Source: Senegalia massiliensis
GTDB lineage: Bacteria; Bacillota; Clostridia; Tissierellales; SIT17
Direction: 5' to 3'
Assembly (NCBI RefSeq): GCF_900626135.1
Contig: NZ_LR130785.1
Coordinates: forward strand, 901,241-965,240
DNA: 64,000 nucleotides
Under the pieces are notes generated by a model. The model made no database searches. It was not told the DNA's origin and saw only the letters and a program-made list of their open reading frames with translations. Numbering within the stretch: position 1 is the first letter of the stretch; each line of letters opens with the position of its first letter. The translations under genes were made by a program, and so were the position numbers. Positions 14,147 through 22,523 of this stretch are shown in pieces.

Positions 14147-14316
14147 CTATGGAAAGCACCCACTTTTAATTGACAATCTACACTTAAATAAATTTAAAAA
14201 CAAAAACATCTTTTCTATATGTATATTATATCATATAATAACATAAAATTGTAGTCTAGTAGTTTCCTATATTGGATGATATACTTTTAACACTACTTAT
14301 AAAAGGAGATGTTTAT

Positions 14317-16608
14317 TTGAAAATTAATCTTGAGGAAAGGTATTTAGAAGAAAAATATCTTAAGAAAACACTTATTCAGGTTAAGAAAAATCTCAATGAA
14401 CAACAAAATTACTATAATAAATTTAAAAAAGAACTTATTGCAATTCAACGACAAATGCGTGAAGATATCGGAACATTTGAATTTAACCCTTGGGACATAG
14501 ATGAAGCCATTGAAGTGCTCCATTACGAAAAGACTATAGAACGAGAAGCTATTCGGTATAAATCTTCTAAAGAGCAAATTGACAAGCTTAAAAAGATAGC
14601 TTTATCTCCATATTTTGGTAGAATTGATTTTCAGGAAAGTGTAGAGGATACTAAGGATATTTACTACATTGGTATTGGAAATATTGTAGATGAAAAGACT
14701 GATGATTTTCTTGTTATCGATTGGAGAGCACCTGTAGCTAGTATGTTTTATGATTGTGAAGTTGGTAAATCCAACTATAAATCACCGAGAGCTTTAATAG
14801 AAGGTGAACTTCTTTTGAAAAGACAAATTAAAATTCATAAGGGACAGCTTAAATATGTAATTGATAGTAATTTGAAAATAAATGACGATTTATTACAAGA
14901 AATTTTGAGTGATACTACAGACTCAAAGATGAATTCTATAGTTACAAGTATTCAAAAAGAACAGAATGAAGTTATCAGAGATAAGAATCATCGCCTTCTA
15001 ATTGTCCAAGGACCTGCTGGTAGTGGAAAAACTTCTATCGCCCTTCATAGAATTGCATTTTTACTCTACAATTATCAAAAGACTATCAAAGCTAAAAATA
15101 TAATTATTTTTTCTCCAAATGCCATTTTTAACGATTACATTTCAGACGTTTTACCTGAGCTTGGGGAAGAAAACATGAAACAAATTACGTTCATAGACTT
15201 TGCAGAAAAATTTATAGGCAATAATATTGAACTTGAAGTTATGAGTGAGCAAATGGATACCTTTTTATCTTCTACTGACCCTAATTATTATTCTGATAGA
15301 ACTTTTTCAATACAATACAAATCTTCTAGTAAGTTTATTGATTTACTAGACATGTATGTGAATTATCTTGAAAATAATTATATCCATTTTGAAGATATTT
15401 ACTATAAACAGAATCTTATCATAAGTAAGCATAAGCTTTATAATCTCCTTCACAAGGAATACACTTATCTTCCATTGTTTCAGAGACTTGAAAAAATAAA
15501 AAATCGTGTATTTTATTTAATAAAACCTTATGAGAAAGAACGTTTAGAAGAGATTATTAATATGTTATTGAACTCAGATGTATCTCTTACGGAAAAAGGA
15601 GTGAAAGTAGAAGCTTTAAATTTAGTTAAAAGAGAATTTGAGCCTTTAAAAGATAGATTAACAGAAAAAACATCATTAGACCTTATAGTACTTTACACTC
15701 ATCTATTTGAAAATAAGAAACTTTTAGAGGAAATTAATACTGATCTATCACAAGATAATATAACAAACTTGAGGAAAACTACATTGGAAGGACTAAAAAA
15801 GGATAAAATACATTATGAAGATGTTGCACCCCTTGTTTATTTAAAACTCAAGCTTAATAGGACTTCAGAATCATTAGATATTCGTCATGTTGTTATAGAT
15901 GAGGCTCAAGATTATACTCCTTTACATTATAAAATATTTAAACAATTATTTTTATATAGTAATTTTACTCTATTGGGGGATTTGAATCAGTCTATCAATC
16001 CTTTTATGAATATAGGCCAATATGAACAAATTGCATCCATACTACAACAGGATGTATCTTTTACAACTGCCTTATTAACACTAACTAAGACTTACCGATC
16101 TACATCAGAAATATCAAACTTTACTAAGGCTTTACTATTGCAAGATATACATTACGATCATCTAGAGCGTCATGGACTTAAACCTCAAATTATACAAGTC
16201 ACAAAAGAAAATATACATAATAAACTTATCAATGATATCAAAATATTACAATCTGAAGGGTTTAAATCTATAGCAATCCTTTGTAAAACTATAAATGAAT
16301 CATTAAATGCTTTTAACGCTATAAAAAAGAATATATCTGTCCATATTATAAATCATGATACTATAAAATATCCTGAAGGTATTGTAGTTATACCATCCTA
16401 TTTAGCTAAAGGTCTAGAATTTGATGCTGTTTTAATTTATGATGGTAGTGCTAAAAATTATTGTATAGAAAGGGATAGAAAGCTTTTTTATACCGTTTGT
16501 ACGAGAGCTCTTCATAGACTATATATATATTTCGAGGATAACTTATCCTCTTTTATATTAGACATTGATCAAGATCTTTATGAAGTTGAAAAGAATACGA
16601 AGATTTAA
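14317..16608 (+). CDS. helD: HelD-like superfamily 1 helicase (RNA polymerase recycling type)
   Basis: 763 residues from TTG 14317, chosen because AAAAGGAG at 14301-14308 is correctly spaced; the in-frame ATG at 14272 has no ribosome site. A long N-terminal coiled coil (about 1-75) is followed by the IYYIGIGNI ... VIDWRAPVASMFYD block characteristic of HelD, then UvrD-like domains with Walker A GPAGSGKT (about 232-239), VIDEAQD (about 526-532) and a C-terminal FYTVCTRALHRLYIY motif VI. HelD proteins bind RNA polymerase and strip it from nucleic acid using ATP; relatives confer rifampicin tolerance in some bacteria. It is intact although it lies among pseudogenes. Confidence 0.88.
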   Translation: MKINLEERYLEEKYLKKTLIQVKKNLNEQQNYYNKFKKELIAIQRQMREDIGTFEFNPWDIDEAIEVLHYEKTIEREAIRYKSSKEQIDKLKKIALSPYFGRIDFQESVEDTKDIYYIGIGNIVDEKTDDFLVIDWRAPVASMFYDCEVGKSNYKSPRALIEGELLLKRQIKIHKGQLKYVIDSNLKINDDLLQEILSDTTDSKMNSIVTSIQKEQNEVIRDKNHRLLIVQGPAGSGKTSIALHRIAFLLYNYQKTIKAKNIIIFSPNAIFNDYISDVLPELGEENMKQITFIDFAEKFIGNNIELEVMSEQMDTFLSSTDPNYYSDRTFSIQYKSSSKFIDLLDMYVNYLENNYIHFEDIYYKQNLIISKHKLYNLLHKEYTYLPLFQRLEKIKNRVFYLIKPYEKERLEEIINMLLNSDVSLTEKGVKVEALNLVKREFEPLKDRLTEKTSLDLIVLYTHLFENKKLLEEINTDLSQDNITNLRKTTLEGLKKDKIHYEDVAPLVYLKLKLNRTSESLDIRHVVIDEAQDYTPLHYKIFKQLFLYSNFTLLGDLNQSINPFMNIGQYEQIASILQQDVSFTTALLTLTKTYRSTSEISNFTKALLLQDIHYDHLERHGLKPQIIQVTKENIHNKLINDIKILQSEGFKSIAILCKTINESLNAFNAIKKNISVHIINHDTIKYPEGIVVIPSYLAKGLEFDAVLIYDGSAKNYCIERDRKLFYTVCTRALHRLYIYFEDNLSSFILDIDQDLYEVEKNTKI

Positions 16609-17707: not shown

Positions 17708-20515
17708 ATGAGTTTTTTAGATGGACTTAATGATGAACAAAGAGAAGCTGTAAAGACTACTGAAGGTCCACTTTTAGTTTTAGCTGGAGCTGGAAGTGGA
17801 AAAACTAGAGTTTTGACACATAGAATAGCATATATATTAGAACAAAAGGATATATTTCCAGATAATATTCTTGCAATTACATTTACTAATAAAGCCGCGA
17901 AAGAGATGAAAGAAAGAATACAAAGATTGGTAGATATAAGAGTAGAAGATATGTGGGTTGGAACATTTCACTCAATGTGTGTAAGGATGCTTAGACGTGA
18001 TATTGATAAAATTGACTATAATAGAAATTTTGTTATATTTGATGGGTCAGATCAAAATACAGTTATAAAAGATACTATAAAAGAATTAAATGTAAATGAG
18101 AAAATGTATGAGCCTAAAAAAATGATTCATTTTATAAGTAGTTTAAAGGATAAATTAATAGATCCAGACACCTACATAAATGATAATTATAGTGATTTTA
18201 GGGAAAGGCAAAAAGGAGAAATATATAGACTTTACCAAGAAAAGTTGCAAAAAAATAATGCTCTTGATTTTGATGACTTAATTGGAAAGACTATAGAATT
18301 ATTTAGAAATAATCCTGATATACTTAAGTTTTATCAAAAGAAATTTAAATATATATTAGTAGATGAGTATCAAGATACTAATCGTGCTCAATATGAATTA
18401 GTGAAGTTACTTGGAAATGCTCATAAAAATGTATGTGTAGTGGGGGATGATGACCAGTGCGTTCTTCCAGATATGCAAATAAAAACTATTGACGGTTATA
18501 GTGAAATGAACTCCTTAGAAGATCAAAGTACTATAATATCTGCTGGTGGATGGGGAAAAGTACTTCAAGGAAAGTTTGATAAAAAGAAAGAAAACTATTA
18601 TAAAGGACCTATTATAGAAATTAAAACTAAAAAAGGTAAAATGATAAAAACAACACCTAATCATATGATGTTTGGAAAATTGAATATAGAAGAAAATCCA
18701 AATAAAAAAATATATATTGATTTCTTTGGGAGTAAGGAAAATAATAATGAAGGATATTATAATCATGTAGTTCAGTTTAATAATAAACCTACTTATATAG
18801 AAGAATACGACGAAGCCCTCACTTATTCCAAAAAAATAATATCATTAGAAGATGATATTGAAATAATAAAAAGAGCAAGACTTACAAAGGATACTACTTT
18901 TAATTATATGCCAGCATCTCATATAAGACCTAGTATGTCTATACCTATATATGAAGATGGTGAAATAGTAGATGACATTGTAGAAGAAGTTAATGTATTA
19001 GATTATGAAGGATATGTTTATGATATATCTGTACCTAATTTAAGACAGTATATATCTAATGATATAGTAGTTCATAATTCGATTTACGGATGGAGAGGCG
19101 CTGATATACGCAATATCCTTGACTTTGAAGAAGATTATCCAAATGCTAAAACTATAAAACTTGAACAAAACTATCGTTCAACTAAAAACATATTAGATGC
19201 TGCAAACAAAGTAATAGATAATAATATGGGTAGAAAAGGCAAAAATCTTTGGACTTCACAAAATGAAGGTACAAACATAGGATTATATAATGGTGATAAT
19301 GAGCATGATGAAGCTAAATTTATAGCAAGCAAAATAAAAGAAATAAAAAATACAGACCATAAAAATTATTCTGATTTTGCAATTCTTTATAGAACTAATG
19401 CGCAATCACGTGTACTTGAAGAATCCCTGGTTAAATCAAACATTCCTTATAAAATTGTAGGAGGTCTTAAGTTCTATGATAGAAAAGAAATAAAAGATAT
19501 TATAGCATTTTTAAGACTTATTCAAAATCCAGTAGATAATATTTCTTTAAAGAGGATAATAAATGTTCCAAAAAGGGGAATAGGTAAAAGAACTGTAGAA
19601 AAAATAGAACAATTAAGTATTGAAAAAGGCGAAAGCATATATAGTGTAATACTTGATATAGATGAAATGGCAAGCTTATCCCATAGAGCAAAATCAAAAG
19701 TAAAAGATTTTGTATCAATTATAAATAAATTCATAGCAATGAAGGAAATATTATCTGTAAAAGATCTAATAGAAAATGTAATTGAATCAACAGGATATAT
19801 AAAAGAACTTCAAAAAGAAGATACACTTGAAGCACAGAGTAGAATAGAGAATATAGAAGAATTTATATCTGTTGCAATTGATTTTGAAAATACAAGTGAA
19901 GAAAATACTTTGGAAGAATTTTTAGCTAACATTTCACTTTTATCAGATATAGATAGACTAGATGAAGATGATGACTTTGTAACACTTATGACACTTCACA
20001 GTGCAAAAGGTCTTGAATATGATATAGTGTTTTTAACAGGAATGGAAGAAGGCATATTCCCTATATCAAGAGCTATGGTAAGTGAAGATGACTTAGAAGA
20101 GGAAAGAAGACTTTGCTATGTTGGTATTACTCGTGCAAAAGAACATTTATTTATAACATATACAACACTTAGAACTATTTATGGTAAGACAAATTACAAT
20201 TCAATTTCAAGATTTATTGATGAGATTCCAGATAGTTTAATTGACAATATAAATGATAAAGCAAAAAAGAAGGCTAAAATATCACAACAAAAAAATAATA
20301 AATATTTTACTGGTTATACTCATGAAAATACAGGTATAAAAAGAAAAAATGATCCTAATATAAATATAGGTGACAAAGTAAAACATAAAACTTTAGGATT
20401 AGGAACAGTAGTAGGTATGAAAGGCAGTGGAGATAAAAAAGAAGCTACTATTGCATTTAATGAAAAAGGAATAAAGAAATTATTAATATCTCTTGCACCA
20501 ATAGAAAAAGTGTAG
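17708..20515 (+). CDS. pcrA: ATP-dependent DNA helicase PcrA/UvrD carrying an intein
   Basis: 935 residues, of which 207 are an intein; the 728-residue extein has the normal PcrA length. Walker A AGAGSGKT (26-33), VGTFHSMC, motif II LVDEYQDTN, motif III split by the intein (VVGDDDQ then SIYGWRGAD), YRTNAQSR, LMTLHSAKGLEY and YVGITRAKE follow in order, and the C-terminal tail has the polymerase/UvrB-binding VKHKTLGLGTVV segment. It unwinds DNA 3'-5' in nucleotide excision and mismatch repair and at stalled replication. The start at 17708 has GAGAGGAG. ligA follows after 13 bases, so repair helicase and ligase are cotranscribed, as is common in Firmicutes. Confidence 0.95.
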   Translation: MSFLDGLNDEQREAVKTTEGPLLVLAGAGSGKTRVLTHRIAYILEQKDIFPDNILAITFTNKAAKEMKERIQRLVDIRVEDMWVGTFHSMCVRMLRRDIDKIDYNRNFVIFDGSDQNTVIKDTIKELNVNEKMYEPKKMIHFISSLKDKLIDPDTYINDNYSDFRERQKGEIYRLYQEKLQKNNALDFDDLIGKTIELFRNNPDILKFYQKKFKYILVDEYQDTNRAQYELVKLLGNAHKNVCVVGDDDQCVLPDMQIKTIDGYSEMNSLEDQSTIISAGGWGKVLQGKFDKKKENYYKGPIIEIKTKKGKMIKTTPNHMMFGKLNIEENPNKKIYIDFFGSKENNNEGYYNHVVQFNNKPTYIEEYDEALTYSKKIISLEDDIEIIKRARLTKDTTFNYMPASHIRPSMSIPIYEDGEIVDDIVEEVNVLDYEGYVYDISVPNLRQYISNDIVVHNSIYGWRGADIRNILDFEEDYPNAKTIKLEQNYRSTKNILDAANKVIDNNMGRKGKNLWTSQNEGTNIGLYNGDNEHDEAKFIASKIKEIKNTDHKNYSDFAILYRTNAQSRVLEESLVKSNIPYKIVGGLKFYDRKEIKDIIAFLRLIQNPVDNISLKRIINVPKRGIGKRTVEKIEQLSIEKGESIYSVILDIDEMASLSHRAKSKVKDFVSIINKFIAMKEILSVKDLIENVIESTGYIKELQKEDTLEAQSRIENIEEFISVAIDFENTSEENTLEEFLANISLLSDIDRLDEDDDFVTLMTLHSAKGLEYDIVFLTGMEEGIFPISRAMVSEDDLEEERRLCYVGITRAKEHLFITYTTLRTIYGKTNYNSISRFIDEIPDSLIDNINDKAKKKAKISQQKNNKYFTGYTHENTGIKRKNDPNINIGDKVKHKTLGLGTVVGMKGSGDKKEATIAFNEKGIKKLLISLAPIEKV
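18458..19078 (+). other. In-frame mini-intein in PcrA motif III
   Basis: 207 residues from Cys251 to Asn457 of the precursor. Splicing signatures: N-terminal Cys (block A CVLPDMQIKTIDG), block B with TPNH (GKMIKTTPNHMM), block F YVYDISVPNLRQY, block G ending VVHN, and Ser as the first residue of the C-extein (SIYGWRGAD). Removing it restores an exact GDDDQ-SIYGWRGAD helicase motif. About 100 residues separate blocks B and F without LAGLIDADG or HNH motifs, so the homing endonuclease appears absent. All splicing residues are present, so it is expected to be active. Confidence 0.93.
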
Positions 20516-20519
20516 GTAA

Positions 20520-22523
<2,004 letters not shown>

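Follow-up and report, generated by a model that had tools for sequence, protein, structure and literature searches.

PcrA is an essential DNA-repair helicase, and the glutamine of its motif III senses the gamma-phosphate. In the window, which is the 64,000-nucleotide stretch of Senegalia massiliensis DNA analyzed here (contig NZ_LR130785.1, positions 901,241 to 965,240), a 207-codon insert stands directly behind the codon for this glutamine. What is this insert, where does it come from, and can PcrA work while it is in place? It is very probably a class 1 intein within motif III of this genome's single PcrA, and one formed through deletion in a mobile intein that occupied this site and contained a GIY-YIG-like nuclease and an accessory module. 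The gene is divided as follows.

17708-20515, + strand: PcrA frame, 935 amino acids, open throughout
17708-18457, + strand: N-extein, PcrA residues 1-250, helicase motif I to the first half of motif III, ending in VGDDDQ (TIGR01073/PF00580, sequence)
18458-19078, + strand: PcrA intein, 207 amino acids, class 1, nuclease-free, predicted to splice in cis (PF14890, TIGR01445 and TIGR01443 above cut-off; HINT fold by AF2 and VIA-align)
18458-18685, + strand: N-terminal splicing half, intein residues 1-76, with Cys1, block A and the TPNH of block B (alignments, TIGR01445)
18686-18859, + strand: probable remnant of a lost insert, intein residues 77-134, in which a beta-beta-helix piece of the accessory module is left and the nuclease module is deleted (alignment with the 324-362 amino acid forms, AF2, dN/dS by segment)
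18860-19078, + strand: C-terminal splicing half, intein residues 135-207, with the YMPASHIRPSMSI strands, blocks F and G, and His206-Asn207 (gap-free alignment with Pho RadA intein 106-166; TIGR01443)
19079-20515, + strand: C-extein of PcrA from Ser+1 (SIYGWRGAD) through the stop codon (TIGR01073, PF13361, PF21196)

The first-pass annotation had placed a mini-intein at 18458-19078 in motif III, and this is borne out by the intein models, the HINT fold and the open 935-residue frame. The insert runs from TGC (Cys1) at 18458 to AAT (Asn207) at 19078 and lies between Gln250 and the following serine, GDDDQ/SIYGWRGAD. The splicing residues were all found where the annotation had listed them: Cys1, TPNH at residues 66-69 (block B), His206-Asn207 at the end of block F/G, and Ser+1. 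The features of a class 1 intein are thus present, namely a nucleophile at position 1, a block B TxxH, a C-terminal His-Asn and Ser at +1, while the deletion of the nuclease module relative to longer forms, seen in the alignment, makes it a mini-intein. On the intein alone, the bit scores are 57.4 for PF14890 (Intein_splicing; cut-off 35.8), 29.2 for TIGR01445 (cut-off 24.5) and 22.2 for TIGR01443 (cut-off 15.6); PF14890 finds no second intein in this genome. The host protein reaches 1007 bits against the TIGR01073 pcrA model (cut-off 911) in two halves that abut at model positions 246-250, with the insert between them. Removing the intein in silico yields VGDDDQ/SIYGWRGA, identical to the empty sites of relatives, and the earlier claim that excision restores GDDDQ-SIYGWRGAD is correct. 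That the insert is instead an assembly artefact, or a misannotated insertion tolerated by PcrA as a linker, is hardly conceivable, since four independent Anaeromonas assemblies contain the same insert, the curated intein models are passed and relatives have exact empty sites.

The AlphaFold model of the intein, built from 25 related sequences (pLDDT 87.6, pTM 0.85), superimposes on the HINT domains of RecA, NpuDnaB and Hedgehog with Z about 17 over 132-138 residues (VIA-align). Like the class 1 mini-inteins NpuDnaB and PabCDC21-1 (Z about 16-17 over 132-138 residues), it has the HINT fold and no endonuclease; the first-pass annotation had noticed no homing endonuclease motif, and no endonuclease family matches the 207 residues in Pfam, NCBIfam or PHROGs. 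Mini-inteins without large loop insertions measure 140-170 amino acids, whereas the window's intein has about 58 extra residues, which follow block B and are not at the C35 loop. As a mini-intein it is ordinary; what is unusual is the nuclease type and the insertion point of its relatives.

PcrA would be produced as a precursor with a computed mass of 107.8 kDa. The precursor is presumably inactive, as the first-pass annotation had reasonably argued, because the insert directly follows the motif III glutamine. Excision is predicted to take the standard route by an N-S shift at Cys1, transfer to Ser+1 and cyclization of Asn207, which would release the 24.0-kDa intein and leave PcrA of 83.9 kDa (computed masses); the product of the 81-kDa class expected earlier needs correction accordingly. 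As regards the window, the conclusion is modest: its PcrA is predicted to depend on protein splicing.

The distribution of the intein among relatives bears on its origin. The named genus mates of the window's genome are Anaeromonas gelatinilytica and A. frigoriresistens (Tissierellales), and all four Anaeromonas genomes, including that of the window, carry the short form (206-208 amino acids). Beyond the genus, 13 of the 60 nearest relatives have a form of 348-362 amino acids or a 324-residue form at the same site. The PcrA intein of one genome among these 60 (G057) is split over two contigs; the rest gave no intein match, and PcrA itself was found in 60 of 60. The scan of the order returned matches in 23 of 249 genomes, including a weak one in another gene (G246), and even draws from the class and the phylum returned 9 of 391 and 9 of 398 genomes, some of them matching weakly. 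Long forms at the same motif are also found in Elusimicrobia and a Rokubacterium. The weak matches of G246 in the order scan and G818 in the class scan were rejected as PcrA inteins: they are other inteins, in what appear by eye to be ribonucleotide reductase and DnaE. The ribonucleotide-reductase-like gene of G246, from the same order, has an intein (L069) that looks LAGLIDADG-type by eye. The DnaE-like gene of the class relative G818 (L160) seemingly holds two small inteins, CFTGDMM...VHN/C and CVTGDTR...VSN/S.

The closest counterparts are the long PcrA inteins of other Tissierellales (Clostridium sp. Cult2/Cult3, Anaerosalibacter and Sporosalibacterium). They share gene and site with the window's intein and are 46-56% identical to it over the shared part, but they have 361 amino acids with a nuclease and a complete accessory module, are patchily distributed and appear to have been recently mobile. 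Anaerosalibacter bizertensis carries the long form while a sister at 0.025 substitutions per site has an empty site, and such presence and absence between near-identical hosts argues for recent mobility of the long form. All 26 intein-bearing pcrA genes encode the +1 serine with TCN, whereas 7 of the 27 genes with an empty site use AGY (Fisher p 0.01, with rows that are not independent), a bias for which the nuclease target or co-conversion could be responsible.

What do the long forms contain that the window's intein has lost? At about 361 amino acids they comprise, besides the splicing domain, a GIY-YIG-like nuclease module and a second alpha/beta module. When short and long forms are aligned, the first module follows TPNHIMFGKLN and reads YVYLMYKKxxGYRIGxTQG...VRLNQEHGDKxWILKxC...EAxYYEQ, after which come two helices; the second contains WxSHRIxFNTSG...GFPVRxGKRxTWRVETERxxYDEA. 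In the AlphaFold model of the long form (pLDDT 88.8, pTM 0.87) the first module (82-148) consists of strands 82-89 and 93-98, helix 112-119, strand 124-131 and helix 134-148, and the second (212-282) is built strand-strand-helix-strand-strand-helix. The entire first module and one helix/hairpin of the second are missing from the window's intein, in which residues 77-134 remain. The first-pass annotation was right that there are extra residues between blocks B and F, but not that they are unexplained: judging from alignment and model, residues 77-134 would be an eroded accessory module and residues 135-166 ordinary HINT strands.

The insert of the 361-residue forms spans about 77-286, and 75 residues with three more HINT strands follow it. 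The stretch behind the insert, from YMPASHIRPSMSI to the C-terminus, aligns without gaps with residues 106-166 of the Pho RadA intein. The endonuclease of the long forms is not found at the C35 site, which lies some 35 residues before the C-terminal end of an intein; the 75 residues behind the insert and the gap-free Pho RadA match place it one beta-hairpin earlier, right behind block B. According to the study of the CDC21-1 intein, every intein endonuclease lies at the conserved C35 site, and absence elsewhere was argued as a steric rule (PMC6801210). The DNA recognition region of PI-SceI is a precedent for a DNA-contacting insert inside HINT, although not for the nuclease itself (PMC8966425). 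In the ancestor of the window's intein, a mobile intein, the nuclease and an accessory module that we infer to contact DNA would both have been in the HINT hairpin right behind block B.

GIY-YIG enzymes such as I-TevI and UvrC have a beta-beta-alpha-beta-alpha core whose strand 1 contains a Tyr, helix 1 an Arg and helix 2 a Glu. The model suggests that the first module likely has this topology, with the three catalytic residues at the corresponding places, in a register that is our own reading. Across 19 rows the Tyr and the Arg are invariant, and at least 90% of these rows have the Glu; Clostridium sp. Cult3 has Gln at this position. The second motif is YRIG, with Arg in place of the Y-I-G Tyr in all rows. 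PF01541 matches 9 of the 19 module members at E <= 1 (best 3.1e-4), the single-member scores inspected being below the gathering cut-off, and an unrelated family, YwpF, matches 13 members as weakly (best E 1.7e-3). No significant alignment with UvrC-type or YhbQ-type GIY-YIG sets was obtained by hhalign (probability below 5%; the YhbQ-type set had 18 rows, one of them, L115, in the wrong orientation), and in a control with 2,600 shuffles the Thermobispora plasmid sequence alone among those of the module beat all. A PDB profile search with the module alone gave no match at E <= 10, and Foldseek/VIA against the PDB with the whole long model listed HINT domains alone. We use the label GIY-YIG-like and refrain from assigning the module to the family, although membership is likely. 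The window's own genome has three GIY-YIG matches, which by size and sequence look like a YhbQ type (91 amino acids), UvrC (631 amino acids) and a 359-residue protein; from their sequences, none looks like a homing enzyme. A 2006 survey described GIY-YIG enzymes as absent from inteins (PMC1564403), and a split class 3 intein is known whose two halves flank a separate GIY-YIG gene (PMC7891396). Among the open-access papers listed, we found no GIY-YIG inside inteins beyond that split class 3 case, and no paper that joins GIY-YIG, intein, UvrD, phage and helicase. The relatives of the window's intein thus appear to break two generalizations, that intein endonucleases occur only at C35 and that inteins contain no GIY-YIG enzymes, and the interdependence of HINT and nuclease becomes testable with bacterial proteins.

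The direction of change is given by the intein tree. The Anaeromonas form is nested inside the Bacillota nuclease-bearing clade (97/99) and the nuclease-bearing phage relatives fall outside, so nuclease loss is derived. The reverse, a nuclease-less ancestor and later acquisition of the GIY-YIG-like module by other lineages, would fit the occurrence of nuclease-less forms in three separated families (207, 215 and 240 amino acids, the latter two being L146 and L159) and the position of the module at one point in all long forms. The nesting makes it very unlikely, although support at the deep forks of the tree is poor, and the phage, plasmid and Elusimicrobia/Rokubacteria relatives all bear the nuclease. 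A 324-residue PcrA intein in two MAGs (L011:946-1917 and L012) has a decayed nuclease in which the motif Tyr, Gly, Arg and His are lost (YVCLLY, YKIK); by its sequence it looks like a possible intermediate of nuclease loss. The accessory module is whole in L159, and the same hairpin of it is missing from L146, L011 and Anaeromonas, so that this damage is common to the decayed form and two of the nuclease-less ones, which also speaks against a nuclease-less ancestor. In the tree, L146 stands apart from the Anaeromonas form; a single nuclease-less clade, tested with five nuclease-less rows and L159 left out, is not the best tree and is not clearly rejected (p-AU 0.06). The best tree joins Anaeromonas and the decayed 324-residue form with weak support (68/68). 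The short forms are a natural deletion series that shows which parts splicing needs.

Selection within Anaeromonas differs along the intein. Residues 1-75 show a dN/dS of 0.04-0.16, residues 76-114 one of 0.31-0.64, residues 115-165 one of 0.06-0.16 and residues 166-207 one of 0.16-0.32, compared with 0.03-0.09 for the extein core (informative pairs). The C-terminal half of the remnant is under purifying selection and its N-terminal half drifts. F90, H103, Y117 and D118 are conserved in nuclease-less and nuclease-bearing forms alike, and in the MjaTFIIB intein the endonuclease has been proposed to act as a brace (PMC6801210). The beta-beta-helix remnant was probably kept for bracing one HINT subdomain against the other, although the fast drift of residues 77-114, half of the remnant, counts against such a role.

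Could the intein have been kept as a switch? The first-pass annotation had suggested that splicing responds to redox or temperature through Cys1, and a broader form of the idea is that redox, metal or temperature gates splicing of the precursor and so regulates PcrA post-translationally. The DnaB helicase intein of Mycobacterium smegmatis has been reported as an oxidative stress sensor (PMC6195587), and the position directly after the motif III glutamine of a repair helicase and the fixation in four of four Anaeromonas genomes would suit such a role. We nevertheless consider it quite unlikely, and neither redox nor temperature control has support: Cys1 is the lone cysteine of the 207-residue intein, and the nearest of the three extein cysteines, Cys243 at -8, lies in a helicase strand. 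Sister species have RQYICED, with a second Cys, where the window has RQYISND, so there is no conserved partner. The fast-drifting linker is not expected of a tuned sensor, and fixation is also expected where precise intein loss is rare. Most likely the window's intein splices constitutively and is an immobilized relic. Being nuclease-free, it would be incapable of homing, and it would persist because splicing-competent copies alone keep PcrA working.

The first-pass annotation had proposed looking up this insertion site in PcrA/UvrD, and it is already on record in phage UvrD helicases of the SPO1/CampHawk and phi92 groups. The site is known, and nuclease loss is what differs in the window's intein. 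In the Bacillus phages SPO1 and CampHawk, the UvrD intein (gp34.33) shares helicase family and motif III site with it (GDDDQ/C...HN/SMYSFRG in SPO1), and for CampHawk the site was reported as Cys292-Asn576 (PMC3868849). Like the long PcrA forms, the SPO1/CampHawk intein has a nuclease module of the same kind (YLMxxxxxFRVG...) right after block B, with low identity to them (27% over 46% of the insert). It differs from the window's intein in that the nuclease is present, and a second alpha/beta module is not apparent in its 275 amino acids. The UvrD/Rep protein of Justusliebigvirus/phi92-like Escherichia phages has an annotated intein at the same site (GDEFQ/C...HN/CIYQFRG), with nuclease and accessory module in the same order as in the long PcrA form and 28% identity over 94% of the insert. 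Unlike that of the window, it is 346-347 amino acids long, keeps the nuclease, sits in a phage host gene and has Cys at +1. Among viral structures (BFVD), the long model matches an unnamed 924-residue protein, the size of phi92-like helicases, with TM 0.85; two other whole-intein matches are a DNA helicase (0.62) and an adenine methyltransferase (0.61), and these three lie far above the remaining matches. A scan of IMG/VR for conserved peptide patterns returned no relative, and distant ones are present in phage GenBank records. Helicases with the same insert type, at related but non-identical junctions, occur in Vibrio phage RYC and on one plasmid each of Stanieria and Thermobispora. In adenine methylases of Streptococcus suis prophages and of a Providencia plasmid, the insert stands right before CLYGWK.

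L111:1367-3478 and L107 frame from 2113: intein-bearing phage/plasmid adenine methylases

On the Providencia plasmid (L107, NZ_CP077319.1 16100-22567) the intein-bearing methylase frame is without an entry in the PLSDB gene table. The helicase copies of the insert sit before (S/C)(I/M)Y.(W/F)RG and the methylase copies before CLYGWK. Such look-alike targets in unrelated genes suggest, on the basis of sequence, ectopic homing by target similarity.

The window's intein is a real mini-intein that adds one more member to a known insertion site, and it is what remains of an unusual family of mobile inteins. As to that family, we lean towards a distinct one made mobile by a GIY-YIG-like nuclease that was nested at the HINT block B hairpin and not at C35. 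It would have spread among PcrA/UvrD motif III sites of bacteria, plasmids and phages and among phage/plasmid adenine methylases, before look-alike (S/C)(I/L)YGW sequences, and would have lost the nuclease several times with the accessory module kept. In the window, a ligA-like gene at 20529-22523 starts 13 bases after the PcrA frame, and shortly upstream of pcrA, at 14272-16608, is a 778-residue UvrD/Rep-like protein that appears HelD-like by eye.
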